This document shows, one piece after another, positions 18,219 through 34,386 of a stretch of DNA of 38,285 bases. The translations under genes and the position numbers were made by a program. The stretch spans positions 1 through 38,285 of the forward strand of contig JAKBAV010000012.1 of assembly GCA_021826225.1 (NCBI GenBank), written 5' to 3'. Numbering within the stretch: position 1 is the stretch's first letter; each line of letters opens with the position of its first letter. The DNA is from Pseudomonadota bacterium (GTDB lineage Bacteria > Pseudomonadota > Alphaproteobacteria > Acetobacterales > Acetobacteraceae). A model generated the notes under the pieces. That model was not told where the DNA came from and made no database searches. It saw nothing but the letters and a program-made list of their open reading frames with translations.

Positions 18219-18326
18219 CGAAACGCGTTATGGCGAGTCGATTACGGGCTTTGGGCAGGGCGCCGCGTAGCGGAAGCTACGCAAGCCCGGCCCAAAGCCT
18301 GCAAGCGGCCGCCAGAACGTGTTTCG
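18219..18326. repeat. large palindromic repeat element, copy 2
   Basis: Terminal arms of 17 bp (18219-18235 and 18310-18326) pair with two mismatches. A perfect 10-bp inner stem (GGCTTTGGGC 18247-18256 with GCCCAAAGCC 18290-18299) and a terminal hairpin GCGTAGC-GGAA-GCTACGC (18265-18282) complete a nested structure. The left arm (cgaaacgcgttatggcgagtcg) matches both arms of copy 1 around TTATGG, and the TTATGGYGAGTCG stretch is shared with the right arm of copy 1. The element lies just downstream of the ssrA coding piece on the minus strand and may form its 3' boundary. Confidence 0.65.
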
Positions 18327-18334
18327 AGAGTGGG

Positions 18335-18683
18335 GGGTTTCTGTTGCCCGGTACCCCCCGAACCGCGCTTAGCTGTTTTTAGGCAGCGACGGCGAATGCA
18401 ACGTTGTTATCGTTCGCATTTAAGATATAGCCCGATGACGGCGGTACAATGCCGGGCAAAAGATGGGTCTTTACCACACATGTCGAGTCTATTTCGCCCC
18501 CCTATAAGCTTGGCCGGCCCGATTCAGACTACGCGCTGCGCGCTTCGTCATCGGGGCGGCAGCGCCGGGAGCCATAACAAAGCCCCGCCGCCGCAAACTC
18601 GTTTGGTGGAGGCGCCGGGTACTGCCCCCGGGTCCATAATGTTTATTCCACGCACCGTTTATCACCATAGCCGGCAAGCCGGC
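18335..18683 (-). ncRNA. ssrA: permuted two-piece tmRNA (acceptor piece + spacer + coding piece)
   Basis: tmRNA rescues stalled ribosomes and tags the nascent chain for proteolysis. On the minus strand the gene order is permuted, as in alphaproteobacteria. First comes the acceptor piece, ending at 18604 with a T-arm (CCGGG-GGCAGTA-CCCGG) and CGCCTCC-A-CCA. A spacer of about 100 bases (18502-18603) follows. Last is the coding piece, beginning at 18501 with GGGGGCG and a GACTCGAC tRNA-like element. GGGGGCG pairs with CGCCTCC, giving the third-position G-U pair recognised by alanyl-tRNA synthetase. The tag frame lies at 18379-18417. Outer limits are approximate: 18683 is from the candidate promoter, 18335 from the end of the last hairpin. 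This explains a stretch without real protein genes. Confidence 0.92.
18379..18417 (-). other. tmRNA proteolysis-tag reading frame
   Basis: Beginning with a GCG resume codon, the frame reads ANDNNVAFAVAA followed by TAA. The AND start and the hydrophobic VAA ending match ssrA tags of alphaproteobacteria (ClpXP-degradable, SspB-type N-terminal recognition). The exact resume codon is inferred from the tag pattern. Confidence 0.9.
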
Positions 18684-18689
18684 ACAACC

Positions 18690-18718
18690 TATATAGGCGC
18701 GACTCGCGAGATATGAAA
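18690..18718 (-). promoter_or_regulatory. candidate ssrA promoter, overlapping thyX leader
   Basis: On the minus strand TATATA (18695-18690, inside the palindrome CCTATATAGG) sits 17 bases from a weak -35-like TTTCAT (18718-18713). The -35 box is one half of the inverted repeat ATGAAA-GACTGG-TTTCAT (18713-18730), whose other half contains the thyX start codon. Hexamer evidence only. Confidence 0.4.
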
Positions 18719-29598: not shown

Positions 29599-31602
29599 TT
29601 AATTCCGCAAGGCCCGGCGGAGCGACCCCGCCGCCGCGTCGAGCGCCTGTTCCGCCGCGATGGGCGAAACCCCGCGCAGCAGCATCAGCGCCGCCCGCTT
29701 AACATGCATATTGCAGGCCTCGAGCGCAAGTATTGCGTCATCCGGGCTGGCGGCGGTGATGGCGGTGAGCATGCCCAGGGCGCGGCGGCGCAGCTTGGCG
29801 TTGGTGGCGCGCATATCCACCATATAGGGGCCGTAGGTCTTGCCGAGGCGGATCATCACGGTGGAGGACAGGATGTTGAGCGCGATTTTCTGCGCCGAGC
29901 CGGCCGAGAGGCGGGTGGACCCGGCGATGATTTCCGCTCCGGTGAGCAACACCACGGGATAGGTAGCGGCTTGTGCCATGGGTGAGCCGGCATTGTTGAC
30001 GATGGCGCCGGTAAGCCCGCCTTGGGCGGCGGCATGGCGTAAGGCGGCCAGGGTGTAAGGCGTGGTGCCGGAGGCGGCGATGCCGACCAGCGCATCGGCG
30101 GCGGTAAAACCATGGGCATCGAGTGCGGCGATGGCGGCGGCCTCGTCATCCTCGGCGCCTTCGGCGGCGGCGATGAAGGCGGTCGGGCCGCCGGCCAGCA
30201 GGGGGATGATGAGACCCTCTTCGATGCCAAAGGTCGGGCCGCATTCCACCGCGTCGAGCAGGCCGAGGCGGCCGGATGTGCCCGCCCCGGCATAGAACAG
30301 GCGGCCGCCATCGCGCAGCTTTGCCGCCACGGCATCGGCAAGGCGGGCCAAAGCGGGGGCGGCACTGGCCAAAGCGCGCTGGGCGGCCTGCTCCTGGGCG
30401 AGGAAGGTCTCCACAAGGGCGATGGTGGCGCGCTCATCCAGGTCGGCCAGCTCCGGCCGGGCGGCTTCCGTGCCGCGCGGCGTGGCGGCGGGAGCGGCGC
30501 TGTGCCCGGCAGTCCAGCTTTGGAGAGGGGTAAAATCATCACTCCACCACACCAGGTCAGCGCGTTGGCCGGGGGTGAGGCTGCCGCGATCGGTAAGGCC
30601 CAGAGCGGCGGCGGGGCGCGAGGTGGCGGCGGCGAAGGCGGTGGCGGGCGGCACCCCGGCGGCGATGAGGCGGCGCAGGCCGGCATCGAGGGTGATGGCG
30701 GCGCCGGCTAGGGTGCCATCCGCGCGGAGGGCGGCACCTTGGGGGCCGAGCGTGGCGGGGGCACCGCCAAAGATGCGCGTTTCCCCGGGGGCCAGGCCGG
30801 CGAGCAGGATGGAGTCGGTAACGGTGATGGCGCGCGGGCAGGCGGCGAAGGCGAGGGCCAGAATGGCGGGGTCGACATGCACGCCATCGGCGATGAGGCA
30901 GGGGGAGAGGCGCGGATCTGTCAGCGCCACGCCGGGGGCGCCGGGGGCGCGGTGCGACAGGGCTGACTGGGCGTTGAACACATGGGTGACGAGGCTGGCC
31001 CCGGCGGCGGCGGCGGCGCGCATGGTTGCAGCATCCGCCGCCGTATGGCCGAGCGAGACCAGCACCCCGGCGGCGCGCAAGGCGGCGATGGCGGCCAGCG
31101 CGCCGGGCAGTTCCGGGGCGAGGGTGACGAGGCGCAAGGCCGGGCCGCAGCGCAGCAGCTCGGCCACGGCCCCGGCATCGGGCAGGCGCAGATGCGCGGC
31201 GGGGTGGGCGCCGCGTTTGTCGTCGCTGAGAAACGGGCCTTCCAGATGCAGGCCGAGAATGGCGGGGTGACGCGCCATGGCCGCCGCCACGGCTGCGGCC
31301 ATGGCGTGTAAATCCGCCAGCGGTGCGGTAATGGCGGTGGCGAGCACGGAGGTGACGCCGCGCAGGGAAAGTTGCGCGACGAATAAATCCCACTCCGCCG
31401 GGCTGGCGGTGGCGCAATCCACACCGAAGGCGCCGTTATTGTGGATGTCGATGAGGCCGGGGGCGAGAAAGCCATGGCCCAGCACGATATCACCGCTGGT
31501 GATCCCGGGCAGGAGCGCGGTGATCAGCCCGTTTTCCACGACGACCGCGCCGGGGCCGGTGAAGGCGTGCCCGGTGAAAATCCGCGGGGCTGCGATGATC
31601 AT
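29599..31602 (-). CDS. NagA-MurQ fusion: GlcNAc-6-phosphate deacetylase + MurNAc-6-phosphate etherase
   Basis: In this 667-residue bifunctional protein, residues about 1-370 are NagA-type amidohydrolase: GLIDIHNNGAFG (metal-site region), GLHLEGPFLS (metal Glu), LGHTAAD and VTHVFNAQ (metal His), IADGVHVDP, TDSILLAG (catalytic Asp). After a linker of about 30 residues rich in Ala/Pro, residues about 400-667 are MurQ: a SIS domain with GAGTSGRLGLLDAVECGPTF (catalytic Glu), AAEGAEDDE (second acidic residue) and GSTRLSAGSAQKIALNILS. MurQ splits MurNAc-6-P into GlcNAc-6-P and D-lactate; NagA deacetylates GlcNAc-6-P. One chain thus does two consecutive peptidoglycan-recycling steps. The start at 31602 has a GAGG box five bases upstream and lies 13 bases after tRNA-Thr. 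Confidence 0.93.
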   Translation of the reverse strand: MIIAAPRIFTGHAFTGPGAVVVENGLITALLPGITSGDIVLGHGFLAPGLIDIHNNGAFGVDCATASPAEWDLFVAQLSLRGVTSVLATAITAPLADLHAMAAAVAAAMARHPAILGLHLEGPFLSDDKRGAHPAAHLRLPDAGAVAELLRCGPALRLVTLAPELPGALAAIAALRAAGVLVSLGHTAADAATMRAAAAAGASLVTHVFNAQSALSHRAPGAPGVALTDPRLSPCLIADGVHVDPAILALAFAACPRAITVTDSILLAGLAPGETRIFGGAPATLGPQGAALRADGTLAGAAITLDAGLRRLIAAGVPPATAFAAATSRPAAALGLTDRGSLTPGQRADLVWWSDDFTPLQSWTAGHSAAPAATPRGTEAARPELADLDERATIALVETFLAQEQAAQRALASAAPALARLADAVAAKLRDGGRLFYAGAGTSGRLGLLDAVECGPTFGIEEGLIIPLLAGGPTAFIAAAEGAEDDEAAAIAALDAHGFTAADALVGIAASGTTPYTLAALRHAAAQGGLTGAIVNNAGSPMAQAATYPVVLLTGAEIIAGSTRLSAGSAQKIALNILSSTVMIRLGKTYGPYMVDMRATNAKLRRRALGMLTAITAASPDDAILALEACNMHVKRAALMLLRGVSPIAAEQALDAAAGSLRRALRN

Positions 31603-31615
31603 GACGCCTCGATTC

Positions 31616-31690
31616 TGGTGCCGGGTGAGGGATTTGAACCCCCGACCTTCGGTTTACAAAACCGCTGCACTACCACTGTGCTAACCCGGC
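31616..31690 (-). tRNA. tRNA-Thr(TGT)
   Basis: On the minus strand the 75-nt cloverleaf starts GCCGGGT and pairs with ACCCGGC, followed by A and an encoded CCA (31618-31616). The anticodon arm has loop TTTGTAA, anticodon TGT (Thr, ACA codons), and the T-arm is GGGGG-TTCAAAT-CCCTC. It is immediately upstream of the NagA-MurQ gene on the same strand, so 3' processing must separate the two if they are read together. Confidence 0.95.
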
Positions 31691-31993: not shown

Positions 31994-32221
31994 TCAGGTA
32001 ATCTTGCCGATCAGCGTGCCAACCTCATAGGTCTGGCCCTTGGCGGCGATCTGCGTGAGAACACCGGCGGCGGGCGCGGAAATATCCTGCGTCGCCTTGG
32101 CCATTTCCAGCGTGTAGATCGGGTCGCCTTCGGCCACGGTGGCGCCGTCCGCGACGAGCCATTCGACGAGGTCGCCTTCGGTCATCGACATTTCCAGGCG
32201 GGGGATCAGCAGGTCTGGCAT
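31994..32221 (-). CDS. free-standing lipoyl-domain protein
   Basis: This 75-residue protein is essentially one biotinyl/lipoyl domain: LIPRLEMSMTEGDLVEWLV, GATVAEGDPIYTLEMAKATQDISAPAAGVL-type core. The modified Lys lies in LEMAKA, closest to the E2 lipoyl motif (ExDKA) and unlike the biotin motif (AMKM) seen in the carboxylase of this cluster. No peripheral-subunit-binding or acyltransferase domain is attached. The start at 32221 (MPDLLIPRLEM) gives the normal domain start; an in-frame ATG seven codons upstream lacks a better ribosome-binding site. It directly follows the fused E1 gene (10-base gap), so it probably is its lipoyl carrier. Confidence 0.85.
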   Translation of the reverse strand: MPDLLIPRLEMSMTEGDLVEWLVADGATVAEGDPIYTLEMAKATQDISAPAAGVLTQIAAKGQTYEVGTLIGKIT

Positions 32222-32231
32222 TATATGGTTC

Positions 32232-34265
32232 TCACTTTGCAATCATCTGGCGGACGCGCGCGGCGATCGAGCGGGCGTTCGGGATCTGGTTGGTTTCAAT
32301 TTCGCGCGAATAGGCGATGGGCGCAAACGCCGCGCCGAAGCGCGAGGCCGGGGCTTTGAGGGTGGTGAACAGCTCCTCGTTGATGGTGCTGGCGATTTCG
32401 CCGCCGAAGCCGCAAAACTCGGTGGCGGCGTGGACCACCAGAGCGCGGCGGGTTTTCTTCACGGAGTCGAGCACGCGGTGATAATCGAGCGGCACCAGTG
32501 AGCGCAAATCAATGATTTCGGCGCTGATCTCCTCTTTCGCCAGCTCCTCGGCGGCCACCATGCACTGGTTAACCTGCCAGCCATAGCTGATGAGCGTGAT
32601 ATCCGTGCCGGGGCGGCGGATTTTGGCCACACCGAGCGGGATGCGGTAATCCTCCACGGGCACCTCGCCCTTGAGCGAACGCAGCAGAGCCATGGGCTCC
32701 AGATGGATGCAAGGGTCTTCATCGAAAATACAGCTCAGCAGCAGGCCCTTGGCGTCGAACGGCGTGCTTGGATACACGACCTTCAGCCCCGGCGTGTGCA
32801 GCAGCCAGGCTTCGAGCGATTGCGAATGTTGCGCCCCGGTGCCGCCCAGGCCGCCGCCGACGATCATGCGGATGGTGAGCGGCACATGGGTGGCCGCACC
32901 GGACATATAGCGCTGCTTGGCGGCGTGGTTGAAAATCTGGTCCATGCAGACGCCGGCGAAATCGTTGAACATGATTTCGGCCACGGGGCGCATGCCGGCG
33001 ATGGCGGCGCCCGTGCCGCAGCCGATGATCGCCTGCTCGGCGATCGGGGTGGGGCGCACGCGCTTGCCGAATTCGGTCTGCAAGCCCCGCGAGGTGGCGA
33101 ACACGCCGCCCGGTGGGTCGCCGATATCCTCGCCGAGCAGGAACACGCCGGGGTCTTTCAGCAAGGCGGTGCGCTGCGCGTCGCCTATGGCTTCGGCCAT
33201 CAGCATCACTTTTGTCTCGCCCGTGGGCGTGCTCTCCGCCGCGCGCACCGGGTATATGCCGCGCTGCGGCGGCACGGTGGCGTCGGCATACACATCCAGC
33301 AGGGTTTCCTCGACCGGGGTGATCTTGCAGGCCAGAGCGCGGATGATGGCGTCCTCCACCTCAGCGGCGGCGGCGGTTTCCATGGCCGCCAGCTCCACCT
33401 CGGTACAGATGCCGGTCTCCAGGAGCAGCGCCCGGGTGCGCGGCACCGGCCATGCTTCCTTGGCAAGCGCCAGGGCCTCGGCCGTGATGTCCTTGGAATC
33501 ACCGACACCGGCATGGGGCCCGTGGCGATGGGTGATGGCCTCGACGAAGACCGGGCCGTTGCCGGCGCGGACCTGCGCGATGACCGCCTGCATGCCCTTG
33601 TAGAAGGCGATGGGGTCGCGGCTGTCGAGCTTTACCCCGGTAAAGCCGTAGCCGGCGGCGCGGCCGGCGAAATCCGGGCTGGCGGTGTAGTCGGGAATAA
33701 ACGTGTATTCGGCGATCTGGTTGTTCTGGCACATGAAGATGACCGGCAGTTTCCAGGCCCCGGCCAGGTTCATGGCCTCATGCACCGCGCCGATGGAGGT
33801 TGCGCCATCGCCGAAATTCACGATGGTCACGCGGTCCTCGCCGCGTGCCTGGGCGGCGAAGGCCAGCCCGTTGGCGATGGGTGCGCCGGCGCCGACAATG
33901 GCGGTGGTGAGCATGGAGCCCGAGGCGGGGTCAGAAATATGCGGCGCGCCGCCCTTGCCCTTGTTCACGCCGTCGATGCGGCCCATGGCCTCGGCGAAAA
34001 GCTTGAACAGGTCGACACCCTTGGCGACCTGGTCGTGGATGCCGCGATAGGTGGTGACCATGTAGTCGCGCGCGCCGGTGAGCTGCGAGACGACCGCGGG
34101 GATCGCCTCCTGCCCGGTCATCGGCCAGTAGGTGAAGAAGAACCGCCCGCTGAGCAGCCCGCTCTGGATGGCTTTATCGGTCGCGCGGATGCGCGCCATC
34201 TGGCGGTAGATTTCAGTCAGTACGACCGGATCGATCGCTAGATTGGTCTTGGTGTCTTGGCTCAT
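32232..34265 (-). CDS. fused 2-oxoacid dehydrogenase E1 alpha-beta (ThDP-dependent)
   Basis: This is a 677-residue chain carrying both E1 subunits. Residues about 1-325 are the alpha part with the thiamine-diphosphate motif GDGATSIGAVHEAMNLAG...NN, GMQAVIAQVRAG and EAITHRHGPHAG. Residues about 340-677 are the beta part with GEDIGDPPGG, PIAEQAIIG, MIVGGGLGGTGAQHSQSLEAWL, LHTPGLKVVYPSTPFDAKGLL and ITLISYGWQV. It would decarboxylate a 2-oxoacid and acylate a lipoyl domain. The substrate is unknown; a branched-chain oxoacid is suggested by the neighbouring carboxylase genes. The start at 34265 has GGGAG about 8 bases upstream; a longer frame is rejected. Separate alpha and beta genes are the usual arrangement. 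Confidence 0.88.
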   Translation of the reverse strand: MSQDTKTNLAIDPVVLTEIYRQMARIRATDKAIQSGLLSGRFFFTYWPMTGQEAIPAVVSQLTGARDYMVTTYRGIHDQVAKGVDLFKLFAEAMGRIDGVNKGKGGAPHISDPASGSMLTTAIVGAGAPIANGLAFAAQARGEDRVTIVNFGDGATSIGAVHEAMNLAGAWKLPVIFMCQNNQIAEYTFIPDYTASPDFAGRAAGYGFTGVKLDSRDPIAFYKGMQAVIAQVRAGNGPVFVEAITHRHGPHAGVGDSKDITAEALALAKEAWPVPRTRALLLETGICTEVELAAMETAAAAEVEDAIIRALACKITPVEETLLDVYADATVPPQRGIYPVRAAESTPTGETKVMLMAEAIGDAQRTALLKDPGVFLLGEDIGDPPGGVFATSRGLQTEFGKRVRPTPIAEQAIIGCGTGAAIAGMRPVAEIMFNDFAGVCMDQIFNHAAKQRYMSGAATHVPLTIRMIVGGGLGGTGAQHSQSLEAWLLHTPGLKVVYPSTPFDAKGLLLSCIFDEDPCIHLEPMALLRSLKGEVPVEDYRIPLGVAKIRRPGTDITLISYGWQVNQCMVAAEELAKEEISAEIIDLRSLVPLDYHRVLDSVKKTRRALVVHAATEFCGFGGEIASTINEELFTTLKAPASRFGAAFAPIAYSREIETNQIPNARSIAARVRQMIAK

Positions 34266-34386
34266 GCTGCGCTCCCGGAATCTCTTGTCACCGCATGTAG
34301 CCGATTTTGGCTGGCGGGACACGCCGGGGGCGCGGATGGCTTGTCCCAGCGTGATGTGAGATTTACCGCATGTGGCCAGACCGGGG

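Follow-up and report, generated by a model that had tools for sequence, protein, structure and literature searches.

A predicted bifunctional NagA-MurQ fusion for peptidoglycan-sugar recycling in Acidocella-like bacteria

Introduction

Detailed knowledge of peptidoglycan recycling comes from few bacteria. The stretch of DNA considered here (38,285 nucleotides of contig JAKBAV010000012.1, called the window below) contains a gene, nagA::murQ, at 29599..31602 on the minus strand, in which the GlcNAc-6-P deacetylase NagA and the MurNAc-6-P etherase MurQ are parts of one chain. The locus raises the question of whether such a chain is a real gene product and, if so, whether both halves work and what is gained by joining them. 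The original prediction proposed a working bifunctional enzyme that channels GlcNAc-6-P. Both enzymes are already known and each half is ordinary; it is the domain architecture that is new. No description of a NagA-MurQ fusion was found in the literature that was covered, which excluded most subscription papers, and the architecture may already be present in protein databases. Caulobacter crescentus is reported to be without MurQ (PMC13046382, PMC11980594), and a further paper concerns mycobacteria (PMC13041923).

The reading frame and its two halves

The gene, delimited by the open reading frame list, its translation and family matches, consists of one reading frame that starts with ATG and runs for 667 codons plus stop, without internal stops. 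Residues 1-366 (30505..31602, minus strand) form the NagA half, an amidohydrolase recognized as GlcNAc-6-P deacetylase by TIGR00221 and PF01979, by likeness in sequence and fold to PDB entries 2vhl, 6fv4, and 1ymy, and by its active-site residues. The gap between the profile ends leaves an Ala/Pro-rich linker of 11 residues (367-377; 30472..30504, minus strand). The MurQ half, residues 378-667 (29602..30471, minus strand), is a SIS-fold MurNAc-6-P etherase according to NF003915, PF22645, and PF13580, PDB entries 4s12, 4lzj, and 1nri, and the catalytic Glu pair. By sequence alone, the closest PDB entries are 4s12, 4lzj, and 1nri for MurQ and 2vhl, 7nut, and 1ymy for NagA.

The profile scores differ between the halves. 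For NagA, the match to TIGR00221 (222.6 bits, residues 3-358) is about 3 bits short of the curated cut-off of 225.65, and that to NF008371 (163.3 bits) is far below its cut-off of 483; the Pfam Amidohydro_1 match (73.9 bits) passes the cut-off of 25. The MurQ half passes NF003915 (333.5 bits, residues 378-666; cut-off 168) and NF009222 (281.6 bits; cut-off 255) and is below the cut-off of TIGR00274 (285.1 bits against 302). SIS-type Pfam domains are also found on this half above their cut-offs. The ORFs of four Acidocella-type fusions (L015, L016, L017, and L046) are 642-649 aa long, and their MurQ match stops some 24 residues before the usual C-terminus.

Occurrence of the fusion in related genomes

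A search for the NagA-MurQ junction was made in 41 genomes, the window's own and its relatives, with all or nearly all candidates scored. A single match crosses the junction in 23 of the 25 genomes of the window's genus, its own included; the two genomes with no match are 85% and 82% complete. The original prediction would have been refuted by a missed stop near residues 370-400 or another sequencing or assembly error, and this is excluded, since the junction is spanned in independent genomes. The idea that a sequencing or assembly artefact fused two genes could draw on the state of the window's own genome, which is fragmented (2.59 Mb, 86.9% complete), but it is contradicted by those 23 genomes and by the open junction in named isolates, e.g., Acidocella aromatica, A. 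aquatica, and A. facilis, so that its probability is negligible and the idea was dropped. The NagA-MurQ fusion is thus confirmed as a real gene. The named relatives in the genus are Acidocella, and the named matches of the collection scan include also A. aminolytica, again with an open junction; the window's genome is therefore Acidocella-like; the carriers of the fusion form a group of acid-loving bacteria. No stand-alone nagA or murQ was found in the window's genome or the other 24 searched genomes of its genus, the extra hits in three of them (G008, G014, and G016) being pieces at contig edges. This answers the question about single copies elsewhere.

In two wider searches, no more than three candidates were scored for each genome, and a weaker second copy could escape them. 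At the family level, 230 of 397 genomes had any match. A junction-spanning frame was present in all 14 matched genomes of the window's genus in the table of that search and, in g112, a second genus of Acetobacteraceae, in 12 of the 13 genomes with a match. Another genome, G063, also has such a frame; the NagA part of its locus L135 is split over two frames, which indicates a frameshift or an assembly error. The fusion in a record titled Acidiphilium sp. (L059) is identical to that of a g112 genome (G391). At the class level, 86 of 385 genomes gave a match, and among the matches listed both halves were covered only in the window's own genome. Several loci considered as fusions were rejected: in Oceanicaulis (L092) the genes appear fused in tblastn and are separated by a stop, in L101 and L106 both genes share one frame in which stops are present, and the remaining loci with consecutive murQ and nagA, marked as separate, do contain separate genes. 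Where annotation relies on single domains, counts of nagA or murQ in Acetobacteraceae can be wrong.

Catalytic residues, selection, and structure

The residue survey included 40 distinct fusion rows, 39 of full length and one (L125) that a contig edge truncates ahead of most NagA sites. The MurQ glutamates E453 and E481, which correspond to E83 and E114 of E. coli MurQ, are present in all 40 rows, and so is D263, the catalytic Asp of NagA. The NagA metal residues (Glu/His/His) E121, H186, and H207 are kept in 39 of 40 rows, as are the substrate-site Arg and two His; in both cases the exception is the cut row. His54 is less strict (36/40, with Gln in three rows), and so is Asn210 (32/40, with Thr in seven). 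The claim that both halves keep their catalytic residues thus holds for nearly all of the 40 rows. Comparison with four relatives gave dN/dS ratios, calculated from listed values, of 0.21-0.30 for NagA and 0.16-0.27 for MurQ, which places both halves under purifying selection. The linker gave no sign of constraint in a test of just 13 codons, and its length and sequence differ among the fusions.

The AlphaFold2 model, built on a 31-row alignment, has a mean pLDDT of 92 and a pTM of 0.67, with the residue block 371-380 in the linker region at pLDDT 66. The two domains are predicted well, but their relative placement in the model is not firm. The best fold matches are crystal structures of NagA and MurQ: with TM-scores normalised by target length, the SIS fold of the MurQ half matches 4lzj_A at 0.97, and the TIM-barrel of the NagA amidohydrolase matches 6fv3_A at 0.92 and 2vhl_B at 0.88. 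The MurQ half has its whole fold (best chains at target TM 0.95-0.97) and both catalytic glutamates in common with the MurQ proteins of H. influenzae (4lzj/1nri) and Yersinia (4s12), at an identity of 39-45%; the difference is that in the fusion, MurQ supplies the C-terminal half of a larger chain. In the same way, the NagA proteins of E. coli (1ymy/2p50), B. subtilis (2vhl), and M. smegmatis (6fv3) share the whole fold (target TM about 0.9), roughly 30-35% identity, and the metal and catalytic residues with what is in the fusion an N-terminal half. B. subtilis NagA has a second His in the first metal motif, whereas the fusion has Asn there, as does E. coli NagA. In the known enzymes, NagA and MurQ are each dimeric.

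Pathway partners

The survey of partners took in a selection of 20 genomes: 12 from the window's genus, four from g112, and four others. AnmK is above the cut-off in all 20, and in the window's own genome it is located on contig 7. AmpG-like matches were found in 18, including all 12 of the genus, nine of which exceed the cut-off; the window's own genome has two AmpG-like pieces below it, which lie on contigs 97 and 48 and are apparently parts of a single gene interrupted by contig ends. The original prediction noted that the kinase, transporter, and amidase partners are not adjacent to the fusion and considered a route with a different gene layout. AnmK and AmpG simply lie on other contigs, which fits an E. 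coli-type route whose genes are scattered. As for NagK, the third partner that was expected, no clear GlcNAc kinase was found in the genomes examined. BadF-type kinases above the cut-off are missing from all 12 genus genomes, five weak hits landing on ROK genes. All 20 genomes contain ROK proteins. The single ROK of the window's genome (PF00480) was rejected as NagK: it scores better as fructokinase-like (392.1, cut-off 443) than as NagK (251.6, cut-off 380), both below cut-off. The same order, again below both cut-offs, applies to the best ROK of G007, G017, G262, G361, and G270; additional ROKs in G017, G225, and G270 have their highest score as NagC-like, and one more in G225 has no match at 1e-20. 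The BadF survey took in all 12 genus genomes, and ROK proteins were named in five of the 12, together with the two additional ones of G225.

Classical NagB was found in none of the 12 genus genomes and, among the 20, is above the cut-off solely in G077 and G422. With neither classical NagB nor a clear GlcNAc kinase found, the route appears E. coli-like and probably anabolic, with GlcN-6-P probably going to GlmM/GlmU. Since no clear GlcNAc kinase was found in the genus, NagA may receive its GlcNAc-6-P mainly from MurQ. It is possible that NagB-II, other kinases, or a promiscuous fructokinase handle GlcN-6-P or GlcNAc instead.

Origin of the fusion

The near relative G046, from another genus of the family, has no fusion; nagA, murQ, and anmK lie there in a row on the same strand, and nagA overlaps the likely start of murQ by 8 nt. 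In G181, murQ precedes nagA with a 4-nt overlap. In a further Acetobacteraceae genome, G066, MurQ is joined to another sugar-recycling enzyme, a BadF-type NagK-like kinase in place of the window's NagA (L130:905-2767, minus strand), and this fusion lies beside nagA, its start overlapping that upstream gene. Quick trees, with neither bootstrap nor AU test, were made for each enzyme from 54 chosen rows; the MurQ of G181 is absent from the MurQ tree. In that tree, all fused halves of both genera cluster separately from G046 and G066 (SH-aLRT 92). In the NagA tree, the unfused NagA proteins of G046, G066, G098, and G173 are placed beside Acidocella, within the fused group (support 86). Due to these unfused members, a single gain of the fusion is likely but not settled. 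One g112 genome, G234, has a stand-alone MurQ nested among the fused ones, and its NagA is of a distant type and encoded on a different contig. Reversal of the fusion is therefore possible and the link is not indispensable; other relatives also have separate nagA and murQ.

The same enzymes joined in reverse order

MurQ and NagA are found in one open frame also in the opposite order, on two MAG contigs titled Actinomycetes (L065:5965-8058 of genome G793 and L082:5953-8010 of genome G792). Among 147 genomes, a set composed of G792 and its relatives, the reverse junction is spanned in six (G792, G804, G797, G796, G807, and G829), and it is spanned also in G793, and the aligned stretches of all seven are stop-free. 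G792 and G804 have a separate NagA-like match in addition, which means that the reverse fusion is not their sole NagA. In each of the two trees, six reverse-type rows cluster together and away from the group of the window; their carriers are a distant, actinomycete-like group. The two kinds of chain contain the same enzymes; they differ in domain order, clade, and neighbours. The reverse fusion in L065 is flanked by a PBP4B-like protein of the beta-lactamase family and a NagB-II-like SIS protein (102.3 and 212.3 bits, each below its NCBIfam cut-off), and in L082 it is followed by a gene for an enolase-superfamily protein. The best evidence that coupling the two steps is useful comes from their being joined in both orders, and the occurrence of this in groups so far apart is good natural evidence for their acting as a unit.

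Function of the fusion

The best explanation is that the product of nagA::murQ is a bifunctional etherase/deacetylase of peptidoglycan-sugar recycling, predicted to convert MurNAc-6-P to GlcN-6-P, to which we assign a probability of about 0.87. We infer both activities, the flow of substrate, and the anabolic fate of the product from the data above. It is proposed that AnmK, encoded elsewhere, makes MurNAc-6-P, from which the C-terminal MurQ half would remove D-lactate to give GlcNAc-6-P; the N-terminal NagA half would then remove acetate, and the resulting GlcN-6-P would probably be used via GlmM and GlmU for new UDP-GlcNAc. The fusion itself was probably derived from an overlapping nagA-murQ operon, and its main effect is probably to secure one-to-one production of two consecutive enzymes. 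The working bifunctional enzyme of the original prediction therefore remains the most likely reading, given the kept catalytic sets and the lack of single copies among the genomes searched. Several data count against it: the NagA half misses its equivalog cut-off and the MurQ half that of TIGR00274, some fusions end early in the MurQ half, the two genes are unlinked in G234, and G792 and G804 have an additional NagA-like match.

It could be argued that one half alone is active, the other being a remnant with a structural or regulatory role. GKRP in animals is a MurQ-like protein with a structural or regulatory rather than an active role, the PF22645 GKRP model also hits the MurQ half, and in some chains this half has lost its last 24 or so residues. 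The invariant MurQ Glu pair and NagA Asp, the near-complete retention of most other NagA positions, the purifying selection on both halves, and the lack of any spare copy found in the 25 genus genomes speak against a remnant and make it very improbable. Channelling, i.e., the handover of GlcNAc-6-P by the MurQ site to that of NagA with no mixing into the bulk pool, is less remote. The joining of consecutive steps in two opposite orders is in its favour, and so is the possible role of MurQ as main GlcNAc-6-P source. But opposite domain orders imply that no single geometry is required, the short linker is variable and shows no constraint, the modelled domains have no firm placement, and relatives manage with separate genes. 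Channelling, which was part of the original prediction, is in our view unlikely. A more tentative extension of the bifunctional reading, favoured by the apparent lack of both a clear GlcNAc kinase and NagB in Acidocella, is that the fusion became fixed as a dedicated one-way module after the loss of free GlcNAc assimilation. NagA would then serve only MurQ, possibly with local transfer of GlcNAc-6-P, and recycled muramate would be committed straight into amino-sugar synthesis. This extension is rather doubtful, if still more credible than channelling as such. As a ready test protein, the fusion of consecutive soluble enzymes may help to distinguish channelling from fixed stoichiometry only.

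Upstream tRNA and other features of the window

Directly upstream of the fusion, ARAGORN calls a tRNA-Thr(TGT) (31616..31690, minus strand), and the gap of 13 nt between it and the ATG (31603..31615, minus strand) contains a Shine-Dalgarno-like GAGG run, read from the sequence. A tRNA within 60 nt upstream was called for 17 of 29 distinct Acidocella-type fusions (13 tRNA-Thr and four tRNA-Arg). ARAGORN called none for the other 12, of which three (L007, L036, and L046) have a tRNA-like CCGGCACCA end visible by eye. None of the 10 g112 fusions with upstream sequence has an upstream tRNA. The arrangement suggests a single tRNA-mRNA transcript, and the tRNA-Thr and the fusion gene are probably co-transcribed.

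The window contains another composite chain, of 696 aa (31994-34322, minus strand), in which dehydrogenase E1 and transketolase-type (alpha and beta) parts occur together, and which is followed by a lone lipoyl/biotin domain of 82 aa. A tmRNA was called by ARAGORN at 18288-18696 on the minus strand, with the tag ANDNNVAFAVAA and with an asterisk, which marks the permuted type by the program's convention.
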